Source of the DNA: Centroberyx gerrardi | Taxonomy: Eukaryota; Chordata; Actinopteri; Beryciformes; Berycidae | Assembly (NCBI RefSeq): GCF_048128805.1 | Contig: NC_136004.1 | Location: 17,726,685 to 17,790,684, forward strand | Direction: 5' to 3' | Length of the DNA: 64,000 nucleotides | Shown: piece by piece, positions 10,401 to 60,610 of the stretch | Layout of the letters: each line of letters begins with the position of its first letter | Position numbering within the stretch: the stretch's first letter is position 1 | Translations under genes and position numbers: made by a program | Notes under the pieces: model-generated | The model's input: only the letters and a program-made list of their open reading frames with translations | Told to the model about the DNA's origin: nothing | Database searches by the model: none

Positions 10401-10828
10401 GAGGTGACAGGTCCTGCCTCCCACTCCCATAGAGGAGAAGGAGCAGGCCAACTAACTGATACAGAGCCGAGAGCTGAGATAGATGCTTCTTCAGATGCCT
10501 TTCGAGCCTCTTTATACAACTTGCTAATGATGTGTTTTCTGCCAGCAATGCTGAGCTTCCTTTAGGGATGCACTGCAAGTATCAGCTTATCGACTTAATT
10601 TGATACTTTGCTTTGCTTTTACTGAAATCATCACAATGTCAAAGGGTGCATGCATGGAATTGATTACATTTACACACTAGATATTCAGGATATTGTGTAT
10701 GATAGCAATAGTCTACATGTAGAATTAACCAGGCCATTCATGAGTACCATCACTAAATCCTGAATGCAGAGTATTACAGCACCGCAGGTCTTGCCTGCTG
10801 TCCTGTCCTAAAAAAAATTGTATGCCAG

Positions 10829-10841
10829 TGCCATCTGCTGG
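10829..10841 (-). promoter_or_regulatory. CTCF-like motif
   Basis: The minus strand reads CCAGCAGATGGCA, a close match to the CTCF core CCASYAGRKGGCAG. Occupancy cannot be judged from sequence. Confidence 0.35.
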
Positions 10842-11046
10842 TCTGTGGTTTACTGGGAAAGACTATTATTCCAGCCAAAGAGGACAACATTTTATTATCT
10901 TCTCAAGTATTGTTCTGTACCATCATAGAAGGTTTCTGATTATTGTTATTGATTATCAAACATTTGTCATAATTATTCAAATTGAAACAAGCTACATCAT
11001 TATAAAAAAGTCAAGTGACTCAAAGGTTGATATGCACAACACTCAA

Positions 11047-11052
11047 TTTATT
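11047..11052 (-). terminator. Candidate polyadenylation signal of the peroxidase gene
   Basis: AATAAA on the minus strand about 410 bases past the peroxidase stop codon. Other AATAAA-like hexamers lie further downstream, so the true 3' end is unsure. Confidence 0.35.
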
Positions 11053-11463
11053 AATTCATGTTATACTTCAAGTCAACAAATTATTTGAAATATACATCTT
11101 ATAATTTAGCTTATTTGGAAATTACCATAGTTTACATTCATTTTCCTGCCAAAGGCTATAAAAGTGTTTAAAAGAAAAGGTAAAGGATTCAAGAGGACAC
11201 AAACATTCACAAATCAATAAGGAACTTCATTCATCAGGTGATAGCTACTGATTACTATCACCTCACTTTGCAGTGATTAATAGAAGAAAGAAAAGGCAAA
11301 ATAAGCTTTGCCCCTTCTCTTCTATAACCAGTGCAAATATCAGTGCATTAGAAACATTACTTCATCTGATACAACAAAGCTAGCAAACTGTCAAAATCAA
11401 ATATTCAAATAGCAAATTTTGTGGATTTGTGACATGAGGATCACATATGGGTCAGCAGCAGTG

Positions 11464-11909
11464 TCAAGAATTGTCACCTGTAGTGAAAATTAGATGCCCA
11501 GACATGTAACTGTCTTTGGTCAAGCCGTTGCCACCATGGTTAGCCACCAGTGAGACTGTGTCACCCTTGTTGAGCTGGAGATAGGTGCCCCCGGTGGCTG
11601 TGATGTAGCCCTTCTGCTGGGTGGTGTAGGAGTGCAGCACCACCTCTCCGTTACGCCGCAGGTCTAAACTGCCAGCGTTCTGGTAGATAGTACAGTGAAA
11701 TGTAAACTCATAGAGGCCTGGCTCTTCACAGGTGAACAGACCCGTCTTGATGTCATAGCTGTTCTGTCCATTGTAGATGACCTCACGGAAGCGGATGGCC
11801 TCGCCTGATTTGGGGAAGTTATTGCCCAGTCGCACAGCAAAAGCAACTGACGCCGGGCCGGTGCCAGGAGGTCCCGCGGGGCCGGGTAGGCCACGTGGCC
11901 CTCTGGGTC
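11464..11909 (-). other. Last exon: collagen triplets plus gC1q domain
   Basis: The acceptor at 11910-11912 (CAG) opens an exon in phase 1. It encodes [18 protein letters not shown], then a globular C1q domain with the usual landmarks: an aromatic-rich first strand (VAFAVRL), [33 protein letters not shown] and SGHLIF before the stop at 11464-11466. Known C1q domains form trimers that bind varied ligands. No start codon or separate promoter is evident for this exon, which supports it being the tail of the peroxidase gene. Confidence 0.9.
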
Positions 11910-14900
11910 CTGAAAAAAGACATGATTATTTATAATTACACCAACTTACATTTCCCATTGTAAGATTTTGAAATATTACTTTCAGTATTAGTAGTATTAC
12001 CATATCTATTAGTATATCCATTCCTATATTTGTGGGGAATAGTAAAGAGAGTTTTACCCTGTGGTCCTTGGGGTCCACGTGGCCCGTTTGCTCCATTAGT
12101 GTCTCCCTTTCCTAGAGAAAGCGACTAGGAAAAATCAGTATCTCAAAAATATTGGCATTGATTGCCTTCAGCAAAAAAGGTCAGTTTTTAGGGTTAAGGA
12201 CATCCACTCACCACTTTCAATCCATGGCTTGAGGTTAAAGGCAGGGATGTCATCACACTCGGTATAACCAGACCCTCGGGGGCGGTACAGGAAGGGTTTC
12301 TTGGGAACTTCAGTGATACCAGTGTTGTCACAAATTATACGTGCAAGGGATGTCCCCCTTAGGGACTCCCTCTGGTCATCAGTGAAGACTCCAGAGTTCT
12401 CCCACCAGAGTCTGAAATGGACAGTTTATTAACATTTGTACATCTGTAATACATGTCTGTCAATGATGTAATTTCAGGCAGGCCTCCTCTCTGCTTACCT
12501 GTCTCCCTCGCGGATCTTCTGGAACTGAGTGGCAATAAGGCAGGCGAACAAGGGCCCCACACGGCCTCCGCGGACAAAGGGCTCAGCCACTCCTGCCAGC
12601 CACACATCAATGTTGTCAGGTGTGCCATAGAGATCCAGCAGGTTCTTGGCCAGCTCAGCGTTGTTCATCACCTTAGCCAGCTGTTTCAGATTTTTGGGTT
12701 GTGACAGCCCACAGAACTTACGCCATTTGTTGTAGCCTACACAGGAGAACATAGTGTGAAATTATTGCACTTGTGAAGATATTGTATAACTTTGAAATCT
12801 GTAAAGTGTGGTATCCTCAGATATGCAGGCTAACTAATAGATAGACCGAATATAGACTAATAGATAGACTAACAGAAAGACTAAAACAGGGGCATACCAG
12901 GGAGTCCATGGTCTCTGCCTCTCTGCATGTTGAGAGCGCCCAGATCCAAGGCCAGGTGAGAGGAGAATTCAAACAGCCTTTCCCTCAGCTCATCATGCAT
13001 CATGTGGTCCTGTGTGTTCAGCTTGGCCTTGCGACCCGCCAGCCCCCTCATGATTGGGTCCAAACCACCTGAGGCGCACAAAAAAATGTTTATTTATTTT
13101 TTTTTTTAAATATAATTCAGGTCAACTGAAATCCTCCAGTAAGGTGAATGGAAAAATTGTAAAGATCTTGGCCATACCTTCAAAGATGACCCTCCATGGT
13201 GCAAAGAAGGCTCTGTGCAGCAGTGGGCTGGGGAAGTCGGGGTGTTCCTGGTACTCCTCATTGAGACGGAAAATGAAGGGTTGAATCATCAGGTGAGCGA
13301 ATCGGTAGGCGGCTGTGGCGAACACATTGGAGATGCTGGGGTCCACGTCCTCATCATAGCCTGGGTAGGTGGACAACTTCTTGGCAATGAAGTCTGGGCC
13401 TACAATGTGGAGCAGGTAGTCTCTGTAAGTGATGACCTGAAAGAGGAAAGGAATGAGTGAGTCAACTGCACCGAGTCTCGCATTTGTGGACGTGCCACTT
13501 CATCACTTCAACCATGAATGTGAGCTCTCTGTTATGTGTGCCGTTCATGCCGTCTCTAACCTGGAAGTATCCTCCCATGATCTTTCGCGCCTCCTGGTAC
13601 AGTCTTTCTCCATTCCAGTGGGGATTGAGCTCGGCCAGGGCGCGTGCCAGACGGTTGTGCTCACGCATCATCAGTGTGTGTATGGAGGTCAGCGCAATGT
13701 TCTCGTTGACACGCTCATCACCTGCGAGACAGCAACAGGAGGCTGCGTTTAATACTTGTGGTTTATGGATGCCTAACTTAGAGTAAGTTGTGGTAACCAT
13801 GACAATCACAGCATCGAATGTCTTGGAAAAGATATCTGATCTCACTGAGACTAAGTTAGTTAAGTAAAGGTTGAATAAAATAAAAATAAAAAATATGTTG
13901 TCAGCACCACATGATGTTTACAATTAGCCTAATATGTTTTCAGTGATTTTACATCAGCTAGTTTGCTTCCACTCACCAGCCAGGAAGCAGGGCACCTCCT
14001 TGGCATTGGTATCATTGGTAATGCGGGCTCGGCTGGCACACATGTTGACACCCATAGTGGCGAAGGGCAGGAGCTCACGGCCGCTGTCAGTGTACTCGGT
14101 GTTGACCCTCAACAGGCCCTCGTCATTGGTGAGGTCGCGGAGGTTGCGAGCTTTGGCCTCCTCCGAGCCGTAAACCTGGCCTACATCAATGAAAGCTGTA
14201 ATGGAGTTCATCTGCTGACGCACAGTGCTTGCGCCGAAGTTGTGGCCTGTGTTGCCAGAGCCGCAAGCTGCTGATGAGCGGAAGAAGGGGATGCACTCCT
14301 CTGAGTTTGTGCCAAAGCGGGGATCTTGCGTGGGAATCTGTATTGCGTTGACAAGCAAAAGTTAGCATTCAGTGTGTGTGGGTGAGCATTGCGTGCATTT
14401 ATGTATTTACTTCTGCGATGCTATGATACAGACCGTGACGGGGAAACAGGGCTCTGAGCGTTCACAGCTCTGGTCACAGTCGATGCCATTGTTGAATGAG
14501 CGGATGACGGGAGAGTGAGGGGTGAAGGTCAGGTCATGGTCAGTCCATTGACCAAAGATAGTCACCAGGTGGGTATAGAGTGAGTCACTCTCTACATCAG
14601 CATTGGCGGTGCTCAGAATACGGTTGGACACTTCCCTTACCTAGGGAGAGGCATGCAGACAGTGAGCACCTTGGTGAGAGTGATATATACAACTACCATT
14701 ATCTAGCCACCAAAACACTGCTTTGTTCCCTTCAATATGGAGAAAATACATGGAGAATTACTGCAGATGTTCTGACTAAATGTTTCTTTTTGGTTTTATT
14801 TATCTGTGTATCTAAATTTTTTCCATTGTCTTTTTAGAGGAAGTCTTCATGTAAGCCTCTCAGGTTTCTTATCTTTCCTGTACTCTCAATTCTACTAGTT

Positions 14901-16832
14901 TTCTGCAATGGAGCAGCCAATAAAGATTATATTTTGATGTAAAGTACCAGGGGAAGAATACGCCTGTTGATTTTCCTGTCACGGTCCCAGCCTTTGGGCA
15001 GAGAGATGCTATCCTGGTACTCGGCAGGTAGCCAGCGGGCGAACGGTGTGTTGGAGGACCCTTGGCGAGTGTCTTTCCTATGGAAGAGAAACACAACATT
15101 AATGATATTCTCTCTTGACAATCTTTCCGTGATACTAAAGGTTGACAGTACTGAGCTTTGATGACAGTGATAGAGGTTTGACTATCAGTATTTTTCAAAA
15201 GGAAAGTGGGCAGTCCACCCCCATTTTTAGTATCTTTATTTAAGCAGTGGGAAAGTAGAGAGGGACACAGAGTAGGTTAGACACAGGAGGGAAAGGTGAT
15301 TTGATTCTAGGCCAGTGGAGGCACACATGTGGCTCCAGAAGCAAGGAACTTAAGGACTCAACTATCTGTGGAGATGCTTATCACTAGCGTTTTTTTTCCT
15401 GGTTCGTACATGCTAAAATCGTTGTTTTCCGGCTGCCTCACCTGTTGTTGCAGACGCTGGTTGCAGTGCGAAACGTGTTTAGATTGGGAGTTGTTTTGCA
15501 TGAAGGGGGGTGATCTCTGGCAGAGCAGCCTGTCAGATCAGCAATGACCCTCAGCTCCTCCTCGGAGATCAGATCTGATTAACAGAGGCAAAGAATCAAC
15601 AACTGATCTGAAATGTAAATGCCAGTATGGATAAATGGAAATAACCGAAGGACATACCTGTGGCATTGATGGAGCGCTTTTGAATGTGGTGACTGTCGAG
15701 AGACCTCTTCTTGATCAGTGTAATGGTATTCTCCATGTAGTCAGCAGCACGCACCGCTAAGCGGGTTTGCCCTGCAGGTTGCTTCATCAGCCGTAGGATG
15801 TCTGAAGGCGTGGCTGCATGCCTCTGCACACGTGCAATGCTCCTGGGTTGAGTAAAGAGAACAAAGACATGAGATGTCACTGCTTTTGATCCATGACAAG
15901 CCGCTGGCATGATAGTGGCAAATTTTTGGAATGGTTTTGAAGATTGGAAGACAACCCTTGTGAGTTCATATATTCTATTACGGCAGAACATTCAGTCACA
16001 CTATTGGATAGTCCCTTGTTGATACTCAACTTCCTATCAAGTGACTATAATGTGTCACTAAAAAGTCTACTGAGATCCAAGTGATACTGATATTCATTGT
16101 CTGGGCTAGGGTTAATCTTAGGGTTGGGTTTAATGTTATAAATAGGGTGAGGTTAGGGTTGGGTTTCAGGTGATGCTAAGGCCAGGGTTAGGGTTACATA
16201 ATCTGTGACAATGCACCAAATAGGCAAGTGAGACTTTGTTGAATTCATACTTTTTGTCACCCGATAGTTAATTGAACATCAACATTGGACTACCCAAGTG
16301 CTACCATACATTCTAATCTCTTTCACCAGTTGAACGGGTTTGTACACTCACTGTGTCCTGGAGTAGTCGTAGTCCATGTCCACTTTAGCCTTGGCTTCAT
16401 TCACAGCATTTTCAATGAAACTCCTCCTGGTCAAGCTCAGTTCTGAAGGCAAAACAAAAAGTAGGTGGTCTATTTCAGTCAATCTGTTCTCTGCTGCTAA
16501 GCAATCCCATTATATTGCAACCACATATTTTGTGGTTCAATTGTAATACTGCTGTGTTTGGTCAATACATTAGTGAGATTTGCATTGTTATTTTGTTTAA
16601 AATATAAACTCATAAGCATCTCTGTGATCTGATCTATTTAACCCTAATCCAAATAAAACAAAAAAAAAACAAAAAAAAAAACTCTATTTTATTTAAGATT
16701 AATAAATAGTGCCTCTAAAATTATTCCTAGCAATTAAAAAATAAGATGATACAGCTAGGACTCACCAGCATTCACCTGGCTCTGCAAGCACAGGTACAGG
16801 CTGACAGATAGCAGGCACAGAAAACCGTTCAT
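11464..16832 (-). CDS. Animal heme peroxidase fused to a collagen-like segment and a C-terminal C1q domain
   Basis: Predicted 900-residue peroxidase of the MPO/EPX/LPO family, which uses hydrogen peroxide to oxidise halides. Coding exons (minus): 16766-16832, 16352-16442, 15658-15842, 15442-15574, 14948-15077, 14434-14640, 13977-14337, 13561-13721, 13178-13436, 12898-13068, 12499-12736, 12212-12411, 12058-12111, 11464-11909; all have GT-AG borders and matching phases. Residues 1-22 look like a signal peptide. The peroxidase domain (about 150-725) keeps distal His237 with Asp236 (TDHDL), Ca-ligand-like TAFID at 318-322, Arg395 and Glu398, and proximal His493 ([10 protein letters not shown]). 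The residue matching MPO Met243 is Asn399. Mammalian MPO ends near WREAS; here WIES runs into a 54-nt collagen exon and a last exon with nine Gly-X-Y triplets and a gC1q domain (about 774-897, with [18 protein letters not shown]). It is probably secreted or granule-stored and trimerised by C1q, by inference. Confidence 0.9.
12058..12111 (-). other. 54-nt collagen-type exon linking peroxidase and C1q
   Basis: Exactly 54 nt, phase 1 at both ends, the classic size of a fibrillar-collagen exon. It encodes [18 protein letters not shown]; the regular Gly-X-Y register starts at GAN. It is bounded by TAG acceptor and GTAAAA donor. Its symmetric phase lets it be inserted or skipped without breaking frame. 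Confidence 0.85.
16095..16200. repeat. Degenerate TTAGGG-like minisatellite
   Basis: Several TTAGGGTT, GGTTAGGGTTGGGTTT and similar blocks lie in peroxidase intron 2. It resembles an interstitial telomere-like repeat but is too degraded to be a clean (TTAGGG)n tract. Confidence 0.5.
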
Positions 16833-17177
16833 CTCTGAAAAACACAAACAGTGTCACACACACACACTGGCCATGTCAACTTGCCTTGACACATGAAACC
16901 AATATAATACTGAATATTTCAGAATTTTCTTCCCAACAGGTAAAAAATTTAAAACATATATAAGAAATTCTAGTTGCCTTATTGTAAGAGAATTGTGTTG
17001 AACACATTTAGTTTGTTGTACTTTTTTTTAAGCAAATAATTCTGAAAATAAATAAAAAGTACAATGACACAAAAATAAAAATACACTCATCTTGAGCTAG
17101 AAACAAAGAAAAACTACATGGAAGGTTAAAAGTTAGGCAAGAAACATTGAAGCAGCTAGAGCCCATGTCTACTGTAC

Positions 17178-17283
17178 CTGCGATGTCCTGGTGATGTCCA
17201 GGGTCAAATCTGTTCTGTTCTTCAGAGGCAGCCAAAGCTGAGTGAACCCTGCTATGCTCTGAAATTATTGGTCAATATATAGC
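17178..17283 (-). promoter_or_regulatory. Peroxidase gene core promoter and 5' UTR exon
   Basis: On the minus strand a TATATAT box (about 17274-17281) lies about 30 bases before a probable start near 17247. A non-coding exon runs to the GTACAG donor after 17178. It would splice to the acceptor just upstream of 16834, two bases before the ATG at 16832. The TATA box fits a strongly cell-type-restricted gene, as for granule proteins. Confidence 0.6.
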
Positions 17284-18381
17284 ATGCTGACATGGGCAGG
17301 AGACTCCCTGCTGTGACGCCACAAGGAAAACATGTCTGCTACTCAGACTAAAGATACAATGAATGTATTTCCTTCTTCCTAGTTCCTCCTCCTACATCTG
17401 GAGCATCCCTGTTGAGCAGGTTCCAAAAGTCATGAATATATCGTGTAACTGGAAACTCCCGCACACAGCCTCGCATTTCAACAAAATGTTGATAAAATGT
17501 TGTCTTTCTTAAATGGCTCCAGATTTCTCCCACTGCCTTTTCTGCTGTGTGTGAGATCTCTGATCCACTGAGCTGTTTTGAACTAATCTCTCCCACAGTC
17601 CCGGGGTAGATTTTATCGAAGATGAATTCCTCTACCTTTTAGTCAGTGGAGCCAATTTTAAATAGACAATTTTAGATGTTGTCCCTTAACATTATTTAAA
17701 GAGGCTCTTGACAGACATCTACAAACTGTCATTTTTATCCAAACTCTTAGAGAAAGTGGCCTAAAATTAACTGCTTTCTCTGAATTTGTATTTATTTATT
17801 TATTTTAGAAATTCTAATAAGGTTGTGGATTCTGCTTTTTTTATGTTTGAAATTACATTCTTCTGGCTATACATGCCGATGATGTTTAATTTAAATCCTG
17901 TTGGCCTTAAGAACAGCTTTTGATATTGTGAACCACTCCATTTTATTTTACCATCTTGAAAACCAGTGGTGTAGTCTAATTAATATGCAGGAATACGCTG
18001 TATGCCCTCTAGGATTTACTGTATGCACCTTTAGAAATGAGCTGTTATAATGTAATGTAATGTAATGTATCTCTTGAATGCTTAGACTGCTTTGGCTTGA
18101 TAACTCTACTGTCTGGCAAAGCGTAAGTAAAGGAATGCACCCCGCCGGCTCATGGACAGTGCCCATGCAAGGTGTGGTGATTACAAAAGCCTAATTATTA
18201 TTATGGTTGGCTATGTTTCATCTCTTTGAAAACACGTCCGGGTTTATGAGAGCTTGTTAAGGCATCAACATTGAAAATGGAGCTGCTGGTCAACTATTCT
18301 GGTTTAAGTTCTGGTGTGTGATGCGGACATGGCATTATGCAGGTTTAAAGACTCAAAGGAATGGAAGGATGGTGTTACTGA

Positions 18382-33609: not shown

Positions 33610-36600
33610 CAAATTCAAAATGCTTTTTTCACATGAATGACAATGTCGGTGTTGCCAAAACATGGAGAAACATAAAACAATGTCATCTCTCTTTGTCTCT
33701 GTCTGGGTGTTTTCACTCAAGGCGACTCCAGGTTCATCAAAGACCCTCTCTCATCCAAGTGGGATATCACACAGCAATCTTTGGTGAGACTTGTTCTTAT
33801 CTCCTGATCTGTGCATTGTCACAATTTTGTCAGATGATGACTAGGCCATCATGCGTACATATGGAATAAGATTCCATAAATATCGACATATACATACACA
33901 CTACATACAAAAATTACCAAAACCTTGTTCACATCTGCTTTTTTTCGCATATATGTATCTTGTTGAACTTAAAAATAGTTCAGTAGTTCATCTAAAGTCA
34001 ACGGGCATCAATAATAATCATTTCCTTTACTTTTATTACATTCAAAGTTGATATAAGTAGTTAAGAATCAGCACCGTAGTTAAAAGGAAAAACATTGGCA
34101 AATCCTGTTAGTTTCTTGTTTTTGTTTTTTACTGAAAATGTTCTGAACATCGATGAAGCTCAATTTCCTCAGACCTGAACTATTCTCTCACCTGTGGCTT
34201 CTCCTCATTAGACATCAGGTACCTGTTCAAAGTGCAGCCAGATCCTTGAGCTTTTCACAGACATGATCTCCAACAAAGACACTCAGGTGAGAATGTTGCT
34301 AAGTGTTACGCTGCATAGTTAGTTAGTAAGGAAACGGTGGCAGTCGTATGTAGCAGTTTGGATCTATTTAACGTCTAAAAAGTTAAACCTGAATCGGATG
34401 CAGGTAAGAAACAGTAGTTGGTATATTTCCCAGTGTGAACACAGATTGAAGGAGAATAATACTAATATTTAAATGTCAGAGCACTGCAATATGATTTTTT
34501 CATCTCAAAAGTACAGGTTTCATGTGCTGACTTGGTAGTCATAATGAAATAGTCATAAAATAATAAAATGTATCCTTACATCTCCCTAGTTCCTCTTTCA
34601 CTTCTGATTAATTTGACCAGAATAGAAACCCAACATTTTTGTGTAACCATAGAAAGTCAGTCAGATTGTTGTGCTTGTGCAGGAAATTCTCTATGAAACC
34701 CTGCATGCTCTGTGCCGGCGCCTCCCTAGCGAACGGGTATCTGAGTGTGATTCCCAGGTGAAGACGTATCTGCCGAAAATCCTGCAATATACAGCTGGTC
34801 ACCTGGTGAGAGTTTAGCCCTTTATTCACAGGTTGCTGCTTCTGTTTAGGCATATGGAAACACAATATGCTTTTTGGCCTTAAATGATCACCTTTAATGT
34901 ATGATTATCTCCATCATTCCTCCTCTTTTGCAGCAGCCAGGTGAGGCCTGTATGGTCTTGGGACTCTGTGCTGTCCAATCAGAGAAGGAAACGCTGAAAC
35001 TTCCCCAGCCTGTCACCAATAAAGACTCACCCAGCTCTGCTCTCAGCACAGGCACCAACACACATGCTAGGGTGAGAAAGGGGAAGTGAAAGTTAAAATG
35101 GCTTAAGTGAAACTTATATGATCTTTTTTTATATAAATGCTACATGCAGAGTGGCTCTCTTTATCACTGAATCTCTCTCTAGGAGCAGGTCAACCCGCAG
35201 TGCACCCTATGTCTGTTTCTCATGAAGAAACTGGAGGACATGTTGCCTAAAAATAAGACCGAGGTGACTCTTTTTTTTTTTTCATATCACTTAACTGCTT
35301 CAGGTGGATATCCTTCACTATGCATCACATCATCTATATGACACCCTCCTCTCTCTTTCTGGGCTTGCAGGACGCTATAGTGAAGCTCATGGGAGAAGTC
35401 TGTGGTCTTCTGCCTGAAAAATATGAGGAGCAATGTGACGATTTCATCAATAAATACGGCAAGCAGATAATCGACTTCCTCTTATCGTCGGCTGCCCCTC
35501 ACTCAATCTGTGCCATGCTGCACCTCTGTTTGTTCACGGACATGTCGGGTACAGGTGAGCTGGAAGCGTATGAGGACCATATTTGGTTAATATTTGCTTA
35601 TGGGTTAAACCTGCACCTCACTCTTCCTCACCGTGTCCAAGTTAATGCTCTGCTGACTCCCCAGAGACGCTCGTCCCGTCTGACTGCGAGTCGTGCCGTA
35701 CGCTGGCCGTCCTGAGCCGACTCCACCTGGGTCTCAACTCCACTGAGCCTCACACCTCCTCCTTCCTCCAGTCTGTGTGCCTCCATCACCCCAGTGCCAT
35801 CCCGAAGGTCTAACCAAACCCACAAATATGAGTTACAATCCCTTCTTGCTTGTGAGGAATGTCATAAGCTGGAGTTACGACATTCCTCGCAAGCCACTGT
35901 AACTTTAAACCTCAACATTGTTCTGATAAGCTCTTGTCCTCAGCTCTGATTGGAGCCCTCATAAAATATCCAAAGAACTCATACCTGTGGCTACATAACT
36001 GTTGATTTAAATGTTAATGCGCTAACAGAAAGACACCACTCATCCCAGTACTTATGTGTTGCTCAGCGATCATGTTTAGTATTGTTAAGGAACTACATTG
36101 CTGGGCGGAAGAATTACATTTAAATATTGTTATGTTTTATGCTTGCCAAAAGGGCAAGAATGTACATGTGCTGATGTCGCTAAGAGACCGGACGACTTTC
36201 ATTAGGTCCTTCTTGAACTGAGTATGTCTGATATAGGCCCTTTTCACATCGTCATGGTAACGGCTTCCGCATTGAGAAACAGGTGCATTACAAAGTCCTG
36301 TTGCCAGCTCTGGCCGTCACTAAATTGCTCCATAACCTGCCCAAAATTAACACTGGTGAAGTGCAAAGACTATTTTTGTTGACTCCTGGATCTAAGCTAG
36401 AGAAAGGCTACATGTTCTTCACCTCAAGTTACCTCTTCTCAAAAATAAAAGCACTGGAGTATTTTATTTTTTTAACTTTTTATTAACTTTATTTACTATA
36501 ATCATTGCATCCTACCCATTCTAAAATCACTGTAAAGCATGGACTCTCATGGCTTATTGCCATATTTATTGAATAAGACAGAATAAGAAAAAACCTTTGG

Positions 36601-58855: not shown

Positions 58856-59094
58856 ACAGAACATAAGGAAACTGTATCCAATCTCTAGACATGAAGCATA
58901 ATACAGTATAAGCTACTTGTTCCTCTCAAAGTTGGACGCATGTTGATAGGAGGGGAGAAAGTGGTGGGGGAAAGAGGAAATAGAAAAGGCACTCTTACAC
59001 TCACTGTAGCCAATGGGATGACGTCTGAGTGGTAAAAGGGAACAAAACCAAAACTTGAAACCCTATCAAACACCCAGGATGGCCATGTAAACAA

Positions 59095-59122
59095 GGCTGG
59101 TTTCTCTGTACAACACCAACCA
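59095..59122 (-). promoter_or_regulatory. mat2a: METTL16-type hairpin 6 of mat2a
   Basis: TACAGAGAA (59102-59110, minus) closed by GGTTGGT/ACCAGCC, seven pairs with one G-U. Confidence 0.8.
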
Positions 59123-59293
59123 AACGTTGCCATCCATTAATGAAGACAGGCGAGAGCCAGGAAAACTGTACCAGACATTTATGAGAATTTAAAAACTCAC
59201 CCACCCAAAAATAAAAATCTGTGGTCCAAAAAACAAAAAAAAGTTGTAAAATATTCACCATATTAGCCAGTGACAATTCCTTGTGGAGGCACA

Positions 59294-59321
59294 CCAAAGC
59301 TTTTCTGTACAACACTTTGGA
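59294..59321 (-). promoter_or_regulatory. mat2a: METTL16-type hairpin 5 of mat2a
   Basis: TACAGAAAA (59301-59309, minus) closed by CCAAAG/CTTTGG, six perfect pairs. Confidence 0.8.
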
Positions 59322-59414
59322 GCCACAAGTGAAACACTGAAAACTAATGATCATCAAGTCGAAGAATGCAGAAAGATTCAATAACTACGTTTGTTTAAAG
59401 CTGCCTTCTGAACC

Positions 59415-59441
59415 CTCAGCTTCTCTGTATCCACGCCGAGT
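59415..59441 (-). promoter_or_regulatory. mat2a: METTL16-type hairpin 4 of mat2a
   Basis: TACAGAGAA (59421-59429, minus) closed by CTCGGC/GCTGAG, six pairs with one G-U. Confidence 0.8.
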
Positions 59442-59543
59442 TTCAGAGAACAAATAAATAGTGTAAAGGTTTGATTTCTATTGTCAGCCAATGAGACCTT
59501 ACTTGTGGCAAAGAACATACTCCTTTAAGATAAGGATGGGAAC

Positions 59544-59568
59544 CAGGTTTCTCTGTAGCTACACCTGC
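59544..59568 (-). promoter_or_regulatory. mat2a: METTL16-type hairpin 3 of mat2a
   Basis: TACAGAGAA (59549-59557, minus) closed by CAGGT/ACCTG, five perfect pairs. Confidence 0.8.
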
Positions 59569-59742
59569 CATCAATATACTTAAGGAGTAACTGGGTCTTT
59601 AGTCATTTCAAGCCATAAAACAAGTGAAACTACATTAATAAAGGACTTGTTTAAAATTGAATTTCAAATGGAAGACAATCCAATTTTCCCTTCCAATCAA
59701 GTATAACCAACACCTCTCCAGACCAGAGCAGTGACATAGCAG

Positions 59743-59771
59743 CTTCTGACTTTTCTGTATTACGTCAGAAA
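59743..59771 (-). promoter_or_regulatory. mat2a: METTL16-type hairpin 2 of mat2a
   Basis: TACAGAAAA (59751-59759, minus) in a loop closed by TTCTGAC/GTCAGAA, seven perfect pairs. Confidence 0.8.
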
Positions 59772-60549
59772 ACAGCAAAGGTCTGTAGGGGCATCTGAGA
59801 CTTTCTGCTCATTTGAGAGCTTGACAATAATCAAGATTTGGCTTGCCCCTTTGCCTGCAATGCATAGCATTTTTTTATTCCATTTATTTTTTTTTAAAAC
59901 AGCAACAACCCTCAACTCTTAATCGTGCCAGTCTAGCATCCTCCACAAAGACATGGGAATAAATCTAACAAAAAGGATAAAAGAACAAGGGGTCAGGGAA
60001 TAATTGTACCAGACTGACAAAGGAGGAATGTTTAGAGAAAAGCTAACTAGTTAGGGAAGGTTTGAGTTCAGACAACACTGCATCTCTGAAATCATTATGA
60101 TTCTACTTGGACTTGCAAATTTTAGATGTCCCACAGATTCCTTTACTTCAGTAGCACCAGTAAATTAAGAGAGGTATCGCATATAGCCTAATATGCTACC
60201 ACCATGACACTGAATAGAAGACTGCAAATATTGATGGAGTGTGGAATGCCATAACAGAATAACTGAACCGCAGCTATGCAGGGTCTATCACAAGGAGACG
60301 TGAGGTAACCTCAACAAGTGGGAGAACATGAAGCACAGAGGTGCTAATTTCAGTTCAGTGTGATTTATGTAGAGCCCATTCTATTCTTTAAACATAAAAA
60401 TTTCTGAGTCATGTCTTCTAGGACCTAGTATGATACTGCCAACAGCAAAAAACAGGTTACAAGACAGAAAGAAGGAAGGTGAGTGAGGAAGGGATAGTCA
60501 GGAGTTAAATGATGCCATTATGAGAAAAGTTAAGTGCATTTCACCCCCG

Positions 60550-60590
60550 GGACCTTGGAGGCTTCTCTGTAGTATACACCAACAAGCCTG
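60550..60590 (-). promoter_or_regulatory. mat2a: METTL16-type hairpin 1 of mat2a
   Basis: TACAGAGAA at 60563-60571 on the minus strand, about 40 bases past the stop codon. CTTG before and CAAG after can pair, with a small internal loop. Hairpin 1 is the one linked in mammals to splicing of the last MAT2A intron when SAM is low. Confidence 0.8.
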
Positions 60591-60610
60591 GGGGGAAAAG
60601 CTTAACAGGT

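Follow-up and report, generated by a model that had tools for sequence, protein, structure and literature searches.

Can one vertebrate gene encode a heme peroxidase that carries a collagen-like stretch and a C1q head, and, if so, what would such a protein do? The question is raised by a locus of Centroberyx gerrardi (NC_136004.1), within a stretch of 64,000 nt that was analysed as a whole and is referred to here as the window. The gene lies at 16832–11464 on the minus strand.

Gene structure

As the first-pass annotation had proposed, 14 exons join in a single frame, with exons and junctions as described; all 13 introns are of the GT-AG type, and the coding sequence (2703 nt with the stop codon added) specifies 900 residues. 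The encoded protein consists of an An_peroxidase domain, ten Gly-X-Y triplets, and a C1q domain, in this order. The features are the following:

Exon 1, 16766–16832, minus strand: 67 nt; ATG at 16832, donor GTGAGT; hydrophobic N-terminus that resembles a signal peptide
Exon 2, 16352–16442, minus strand: 91 nt; counterpart of the N-terminal region of the MPO precursor in the alignment
Exon 3, 15658–15842, minus strand: 185 nt; likewise aligned with the N-terminal region of the MPO precursor
Exon 4, 15442–15574, minus strand: 133 nt; extends into the peroxidase domain, which begins at residue 149
Exon 5, 14948–15077, minus strand: 130 nt; peroxidase domain
Exon 6, 14434–14640, minus strand: 207 nt; peroxidase; Gln233, Asp236, and His237 correspond to MPO Q91, D94, and H95
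Exon 7, 13977–14337, minus strand: 361 nt; peroxidase; Cys296 at the position of MPO Cys153
Exon 8, 13561–13721, minus strand: 161 nt; peroxidase; Arg395, Glu398, and Asn399 at the positions of MPO R239, E242, and M243
Exon 9, 13178–13436, minus strand: 259 nt; peroxidase; proximal His493 corresponds to MPO H336
Exon 10, 12898–13068, minus strand: 171 nt; peroxidase; Asn578 corresponds to MPO N421
Exon 11, 12499–12736, minus strand: 238 nt; peroxidase
Exon 12, 12212–12411, minus strand: 200 nt; end of the peroxidase part, donor at the human MPO end point
Intron 12, 12112–12211, minus strand: 100 nt; poly(A) signal absent
Exon 13, 12058–12111, minus strand: 54 nt, phase 1-1; encodes the linker, then the first of the Gly-X-Y triplets
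Intron 13, 11910–12057, minus strand: 148 nt; poly(A) signal absent
Exon 14, 11464–11909, minus strand: 446 nt including the stop codon; last Gly-X-Y triplets and C1q domain
Candidate poly(A) signal AATAAA, 11047–11052, minus strand: 3' of the C1q exon, with a second such signal starting at 10896

A tblastn scan of the window with seven query proteins (E of 1e-3 or better) revealed no further peroxidase or C1q gene, all 71 matches falling within 10800–17600. A Pfam scan of 20 other open frames of the window gave one match, and NCBIfam profiles offered no useful family for the six proteins compared.

Peroxidase domain

The An_peroxidase domain (PF03098, residues 149–708) is complete, matching the Pfam model from position 1 to 530 of 530 with 626.7 bits. 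The heme-site signature comprises the distal Gln/Asp/His, an Arg, a Glu, the proximal His, and an Asn. All seven residues are present, at the positions that we take to be Q91, D94, H95, R239, E242, H336, and N421 of MPO, and each is conserved in 123–125 of 126 C1q-bearing relatives; the catalytic residues of an MPO/EPX-like peroxidase reported at first pass are indeed there. Residues 57–744 of the 745-residue chain of human MPO (6bmt_A) align with residues 27–734 of the window protein, and exon 12 terminates one base into codon 735. The exon 12 donor therefore coincides with the MPO end point, which confirms, for human MPO, the suggestion that it lies where mammalian MPO/EPX stop.

The window protein thus has in common with MPO, EPX, and LPO the full PF03098 domain, the heme-site residues, and an alignment with MPO to near the chain end. 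It differs from MPO in that the chain extends into collagen-like repeats and C1q, and in one further position: Met243, presumably the residue that forms the MPO-specific sulfonium bond to heme, is replaced by Asn399, i.e., the Met of myeloperoxidase proper is absent. The 126 C1q-bearing relatives have Asn (117), His (4), Gln (3), or a gap (2) here. Given the Asn at this position, EPX/LPO-like chemistry (bromide, thiocyanate) would be expected rather than strong MPO-like chlorination. Asp236 and Glu398, at positions relevant to the covalent heme esters, are present; ester formation and the oxidation of halide or thiocyanate are predictions.

Collagen-like stalk and C1q head

Ten uninterrupted Gly-X-Y triplets (residues 741–770) begin in exon 13 and continue in the first part of exon 14. 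The 54-nt exon first described as collagen does encode Gly-X-Y, but the stretch also runs into exon 14. The window protein has no match to PF01391, the collagen repeat model of Pfam; a paralogue-type protein, P0116, scores 20.4 bits, below the cut-off (27.2). Since 29 of 127 C1q-bearing rows (window included) have no run of three or more triplets, collagen as an essential part of the design is unsupported.

The C1q domain (residues 775–893) is also complete (81.9 bits, model positions 1–127 of 127) and has the jelly-roll fold. Nineteen core positions reach a conservation of at least 95% in the 127 rows, and the fused domains of 126 rows are 34 to 98% identical to that of the window. A structure model of the whole protein (monomer, 37 sequences) has a mean pLDDT of 52.1 and is poor except in the C1q region and in a few segments of the peroxidase. 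The best-matching folds for the head are adiponectin and collagen X NC1, with C1QL heads tied within 1. The former two are mainly trimerising hormone or matrix modules, not pathogen sensors. The window protein differs from adiponectin, collagens VIII/X, C1QL, and complement C1q in having ten triplets only and an enzyme ahead of them. In the complement C1q subcomponent, A, B, and C chains assemble into a heterotrimer, which binds antibody as well as C1r/C1s; the likeness to these chains is one of head fold, a shared domain, and not of subunit identity.

The nearest folds, together with a short and variable stalk, would suit a real fusion whose C1q tail only oligomerises the enzyme, packages it, or retains it (through sorting to granules or anchoring in the matrix) and has no part in microbial targeting. 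We consider this rather unlikely. A peroxidase of Sardina pilchardus (P0151, a single gene model) has an MPO/EPX-type domain and, at the corresponding C-terminal position, a binding module, but a SUEL lectin (D-galactoside/L-rhamnose type) replaces C1q, which fits a recurring use of the C-terminus for binding. The wide identity range of the fused C1q domains fits variable surface binding, and equally relaxed constraint.

Fusion in other fishes

An_peroxidase and C1q occur together in all 120 matches listed (of 614). The expectation that databases contain unremarked automated models was correct: at least 120 fish models carry both domains under names such as ‘eosinophil peroxidase-like’, ‘myeloperoxidase-like’, and ‘C1q domain-containing protein’, each naming one half only. 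Most compared rows are gene predictions. The design is present in many ray-finned fishes and is not a private accident; it joins known components, peroxidase and C1q, in a fish architecture of which no description was found in the open-access literature searched.

The orthologue of Centroberyx affinis is 96% identical over residues 640–900, and a second locus of the same genome has an identical 14-exon, same-phase design. Since three contigs (83–97% coding) encode the complete fusion without introns, a spliced fusion mRNA probably exists. These observations bear on whether the gene model has joined two neighbouring genes or reflects a misassembly, an explanation that no specific finding supports; predicted genes are in general prone to such artefacts. 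The distance from exon 12 to exon 14 is 302 nt, which we judge too short for a separate promoter and signal-peptide exon; neither intron has a poly(A) signal, and the same join recurs in orthologues, at the second locus, and in short intron-free contigs. Two separate genes were rejected on these grounds, and chance or misassembly as the source of the fusion appears very unlikely in view of the orthologue and the second locus.

When the peroxidase part of the bowfin protein served as query, the 8000 candidates with the most words in common were scored and the best 120 of 3164 matches examined. C1q was found in 52 of the 120 matches listed and was absent from the models of 68, gar, paddlefish, and sturgeon included; zebrafish Mpx was not among the matches listed. 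The bowfin peroxidase itself carries the fusion, and a search with its C1q piece alone gave 2 matches among 284 candidates, which is uninformative on absence. The many models without C1q, and the heavy processing that MPO undergoes, would agree with a propeptide-like C1q tail removed in maturation to leave an ordinary peroxidase as the working enzyme. This is clearly improbable: between KK705-706 and C1q there is no dibasic pair, and the only later one, RR837, lies inside C1q (other proteases are possible), and the C1q core is kept.

A salmon mass spectrometry study lists ‘Eosinophil peroxidase-like’ with values of 34 and 50.50, presumably peptides and % coverage (PMC8066739); this row was not counted as proof of the fusion, since Pfam finds no C1q domain in P0194, a relative from the salmonid Hucho. 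A trout liver study names the peroxidase, not its domains (PMC6167799).

Origin and losses

In a tree, 13 sampled fused C1q domains form one clade, separate from 20 further C1q domains encoded by the C. gerrardi genome, which were hand-picked from 106 matches and roughly trimmed to the final 140 residues of an open frame (one, L024, covers 46% of the alignment columns). From this clade and the bowfin fusion, we infer a single origin before teleosts, with many losses or missed exons since; the dating depends on these, given the listed peroxidases without C1q. It would have arisen when a phase-1 collagen–C1q exon pair was added downstream of the final peroxidase exon, with many later losses. On a quick, simple-model tree of 83 peroxidase domains, hand-chosen from 196 available rows, C1q presence requires at least 22 state changes, and the Arapaima fusion P0133 lies outside both large clades. 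Five pairs of fusion and non-fusion copies, each from one percomorph genus, were compared in the window’s clade; four are sisters (Chelmon, Pempheris, Thunnus, and Clinocottus) and that of Sebastes is not. This pattern requires gene conversion or repeated loss.

Candidate splice switch

In one ray-finned peroxidase gene line, the targeting head may be controlled by splicing, a proposal for and against which we see the balance as even. A 38-nt cassette exon, 12b, in the paralogue would toggle between collagen–C1q and an acidic tail. Skipping would keep the collagen–C1q frame and give an enzyme with a head; inclusion would shift the frame, so that the collagen exon, coding in two frames, is read as a tail rich in Asp, Gln, and Glu, C1q is lost, and the enzyme is free. 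The stop codon of the predicted tail lies at the beginning of the last exon; the final residues are ENEVPQE in the C2 gene and ENEVPQA in eel, and annotated eel isoforms show an acidic tail of this kind. The switch would be old, spanning eels to percomorphs within the C2-type clade.

Exon 12b was sought because such tails suggested such an exon, and it is predicted from sequence only. The candidate scores 48 against the Trachinotus tail, whereas none of 1000 shuffled introns did as well (maximum 24); the matches with Parambassis, Xenentodon, and Cyprinodon are weaker, being equalled by 2, 7, and 21, respectively, of 1000 shuffled introns. The donor of exon 12b (GTCAGA) is not a strong splice site. 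After a trial of 18 tails against 12 fusions in both shifts, co-encoding was assessed in the +1 frame only: among 68 rows without C1q, 36 tails were long enough and 32 too short. Seven of the 36 reach 14 or more consecutive residues, against at most 11 in 108 shuffled tails. These seven rows represent about five genes (P0125/P0126 are eel isoforms, P0158/P0159 one killifish). Only P0125, P0130, and P0126 co-encode through to the stop; P0185, P0158, P0159, and P0165 match the repetitive Gly-Pro stretch only and are weaker. The other 29 tails do not exceed the shuffle maximum, including those of Trachinotus and Parambassis, which had no close C2-type fusion partner in the comparison. The window gene appears fixed in the head-bearing state: since its intron 12 is probably too short for the cassette, its product should always carry the head.

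Proposed function and implications

A spliced frame that contains both domains and the heme-site residues, the many fish models, the second locus, and the intron-free contigs are best explained, and here we lean slightly toward this reading, by a secreted or granule-stored peroxidase of the MPO/EPX/LPO group whose collagen-like stalk and C1q head would aim its oxidant chemistry. The C1q heads would link three chains into a trimer and attach to a microbial, altered-self, or matrix surface, so that several heme centres may produce hypohalous or hypothiocyanous acid at the site of attachment; in some relatives, the frame-shifting exon may remove the head. Of the first-pass interpretation, the fusion frame, domains, and donor position hold, and the multivalent, target-binding part is an inference.

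MPO-type enzymes are textbook weapons of neutrophils and eosinophils, and their oxidants also harm the host. The wide occurrence of a vertebrate form that brings its own C1q head suggests that this chemistry is aimed or clustered in many fishes, and the peroxidases used as fish granulocyte markers may not be simple MPO equivalents. The splice switch, if true, would let one gene produce aimed and free forms, and is directly testable by RT-PCR in farmed species.

Structure of the Fusion Gene

The window gene occupies 16832 to 11464 of the minus strand and comprises 14 exons, joined across GT-AG introns into a single frame of 900 codons plus a stop. Pfam places a complete animal heme peroxidase domain at residues 149–708 and a complete C1q domain at residues 775–893, as expected from the first-pass annotation, which had read 14 exons in one frame running from peroxidase through collagen into C1q. 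The two domains are separated by ten Gly-X-Y triplets (residues 741–770), divided between the 54-nt exon 13 and the beginning of exon 14. In the alignment with human myeloperoxidase (MPO, 745 residues), the last aligned position pairs residue 734 with MPO residue 744. Since the last base of exon 12 is the first of codon 735, the added exons start where MPO ends, and the donor of exon 12 indeed sits at the end of human MPO, as had been proposed for mammalian MPO/EPX. AATAAA/ATTAAA signals are present only 3' of the C1q exon, at 11052 and 10896; none was found in intron 12 (100 nt) or intron 13 (148 nt). Elsewhere, the window contains the following features:

35257–35715, plus strand: open frame that matches saposin B-type region 2 (PF03489, 45.5 bits)
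59078–60601, minus strand: MAT2A 3'UTR stem loops, of which A and D exceed the Rfam cut-off and F and two matches to C fall short of it

The stem loop matches suggest a MAT2A gene at that end of the window.

Distribution of the Fusion

A protein search with window residues 640–900 returned 614 matches, and both domains were verified on the alignment in all of the best 120, so the surmise that automated databases hold such models was justified. The top match, from Centroberyx affinis, is 96% identical over the query; the sources among the matches listed include bowfin, bonytongue, eels, herrings, milkfish, a sucker, pike, cod, and many percomorphs. Judging from these sequences, the fusion is not a local accident. 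Because this query is biased toward C1q, a second search used the peroxidase part of the bowfin protein alone and gave 3164 matches; among the best 120, C1q was present in 52, bowfin included, and absent from 68.

Three database proteins with both domains are encoded on short contigs consisting largely of coding sequence: P0033 (2685 of 2768 nt), P0187 (2682 of 2932 nt), and P0107 (2607 of 3133 nt). Compared with the window gene, whose coding span of 5369 nt includes 13 introns, these contigs probably derive from spliced RNA.

The whole C. gerrardi genome (778.9 Mb, 278 contigs) holds at least 106 C1q matches; among those listed, two lie directly downstream of a same-strand peroxidase: the window locus and C2:14855653–14856009. 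The remaining peroxidase matches (contigs C2, C4, C8, C9, and C17) are not adjoined by a C1q match, among the matches listed. Spliced alignment guided by the annotated C. affinis protein P0116 gave a C2 gene of 14 exons, identical in phase to the window gene at 13/13 junctions, with a collagen exon of 63 nt and a final exon that has 434 nt ahead of the stop.

Fusion and non-fusion copies coexist within Chelmon, Chaetodon, Pempheris, Thunnus, Clinocottus, and Sebastes, among the matches listed; in Chelmon, Chaetodon, Pempheris, and Clinocottus, some of these copies lie on contigs of equal size. In the peroxidase tree, same-genus pairs are sisters in four of five cases (the exception being Sebastes), which points either to gene conversion in the peroxidase part or to loss of the tail on several occasions. 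P0002 of Symphorus nematophorus (1505 residues) has about the length of two peroxidases and one C1q, and is perhaps two tandem genes fused by annotation.

Other tails were also observed. P0151 of Sardina pilchardus, from the same peroxidase group, differs from the window protein in carrying a second kind of binding module at the same C-terminal place, a SUEL lectin domain (743–824, 78.5 bits, cut-off 31.4) that replaces C1q. The last 82 residues of P0146 and P0147 (Acipenser oxyrinchus) are Gly/Pro-rich and partly collagen-like, without C1q; an exon may have been missed here, or these tails may represent a stage that preceded the fusion. By eye, the C-terminus of P0194 (Hucho hucho) resembles a shortened, degenerate C1q domain, and this tail has no Pfam match. 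As its cluster holds 36 member sequences, salmonids may have lost a working C1q head.

The peroxidase–C1q fusion is thus real and widespread. No description of it was found in searches of an open-access library; a prior description is possible, but the fusion is apparently an undescribed form within the MPO/EPX (eosinophil peroxidase) family.

Heme Site and Proposed Function

The catalytic residues claimed to be visible are conserved with and without C1q: each of seven heme-site residues is retained in 123–125 of 126 C1q-bearing relatives and in 67–68 of 68 lacking C1q. The window protein differs from MPO in its collagen and C1q exons past the MPO end and in Asn at the MPO Met243 position, where Met occurs in none of the 194 proteins. 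On general peroxidase enzymology, this Asn points to EPX/LPO-like chemistry (LPO, lactoperoxidase). Of the 126 C1q-bearing relatives, 124 conserve a Cys that aligns with MPO Cys153; LPO and EPX likewise carry it, and therefore it does not predict dimers.

The window protein would be a granule or secreted peroxidase, held by its C1q heads as a trimer on a surface, where several heme centers would be brought together. We infer this as the best reading of function, the trimer from the C1q fold family and the binding from general reports that fish C1q-domain proteins bind surfaces. The cod protein P0061, named eosinophil peroxidase, is a fusion (among the matches listed). In PMC7588623, Atlantic cod neutrophils were identified by expression of genes including one called eosinophil peroxidase; the two share a name and are possibly the same gene.

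A Candidate Splice Switch

Intron 12 of the C2 gene contains a 38-nt stretch flanked by AG and GT (2900–2863 of the extracted locus L009), with a weak donor. Its inclusion shifts the frame, such that exon 13 translates as LDQQDPQDHQDPQENE and exon 14 contributes VPQE and a stop, giving a 776-residue product without C1q. A Trachinotus "isoform X2" ends in a tail that this stretch matches over 12 residues with a score of 48; none of 1000 shuffled introns did as well (maximum 24), and three other species matched more weakly. Ten C1q-less models carry (D/E)NE(V/I) near the C-terminus, followed by PQ in six.

Independently of this match, a European eel "isoform X2" (P0125) has a tail that the American eel fusion P0034 can encode in its collagen stretch when read one frame off; the agreement covers 24 positions in a row, with the stop among them. 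The conger fusion P0078 can likewise encode a moray tail (P0130) off-frame. Among 36 tails tested from the 68 C1q-less proteins, seven showed at least 14 consecutive positions, compared with at most 11 in 108 shuffles; three of the seven extend to the stop, and in the remaining four the match is confined to the repetitive Gly-Pro part.

Based on sequence and annotation, such as these annotated isoforms, it is possible that the 38-nt cassette switches the C1q head off by frame shift in C2-type genes. The 100-nt intron 12 of the window gene has no room for such a cassette, so this gene should always carry its head. Of the leads from this analysis that can be tested, the splice switch is the boldest.
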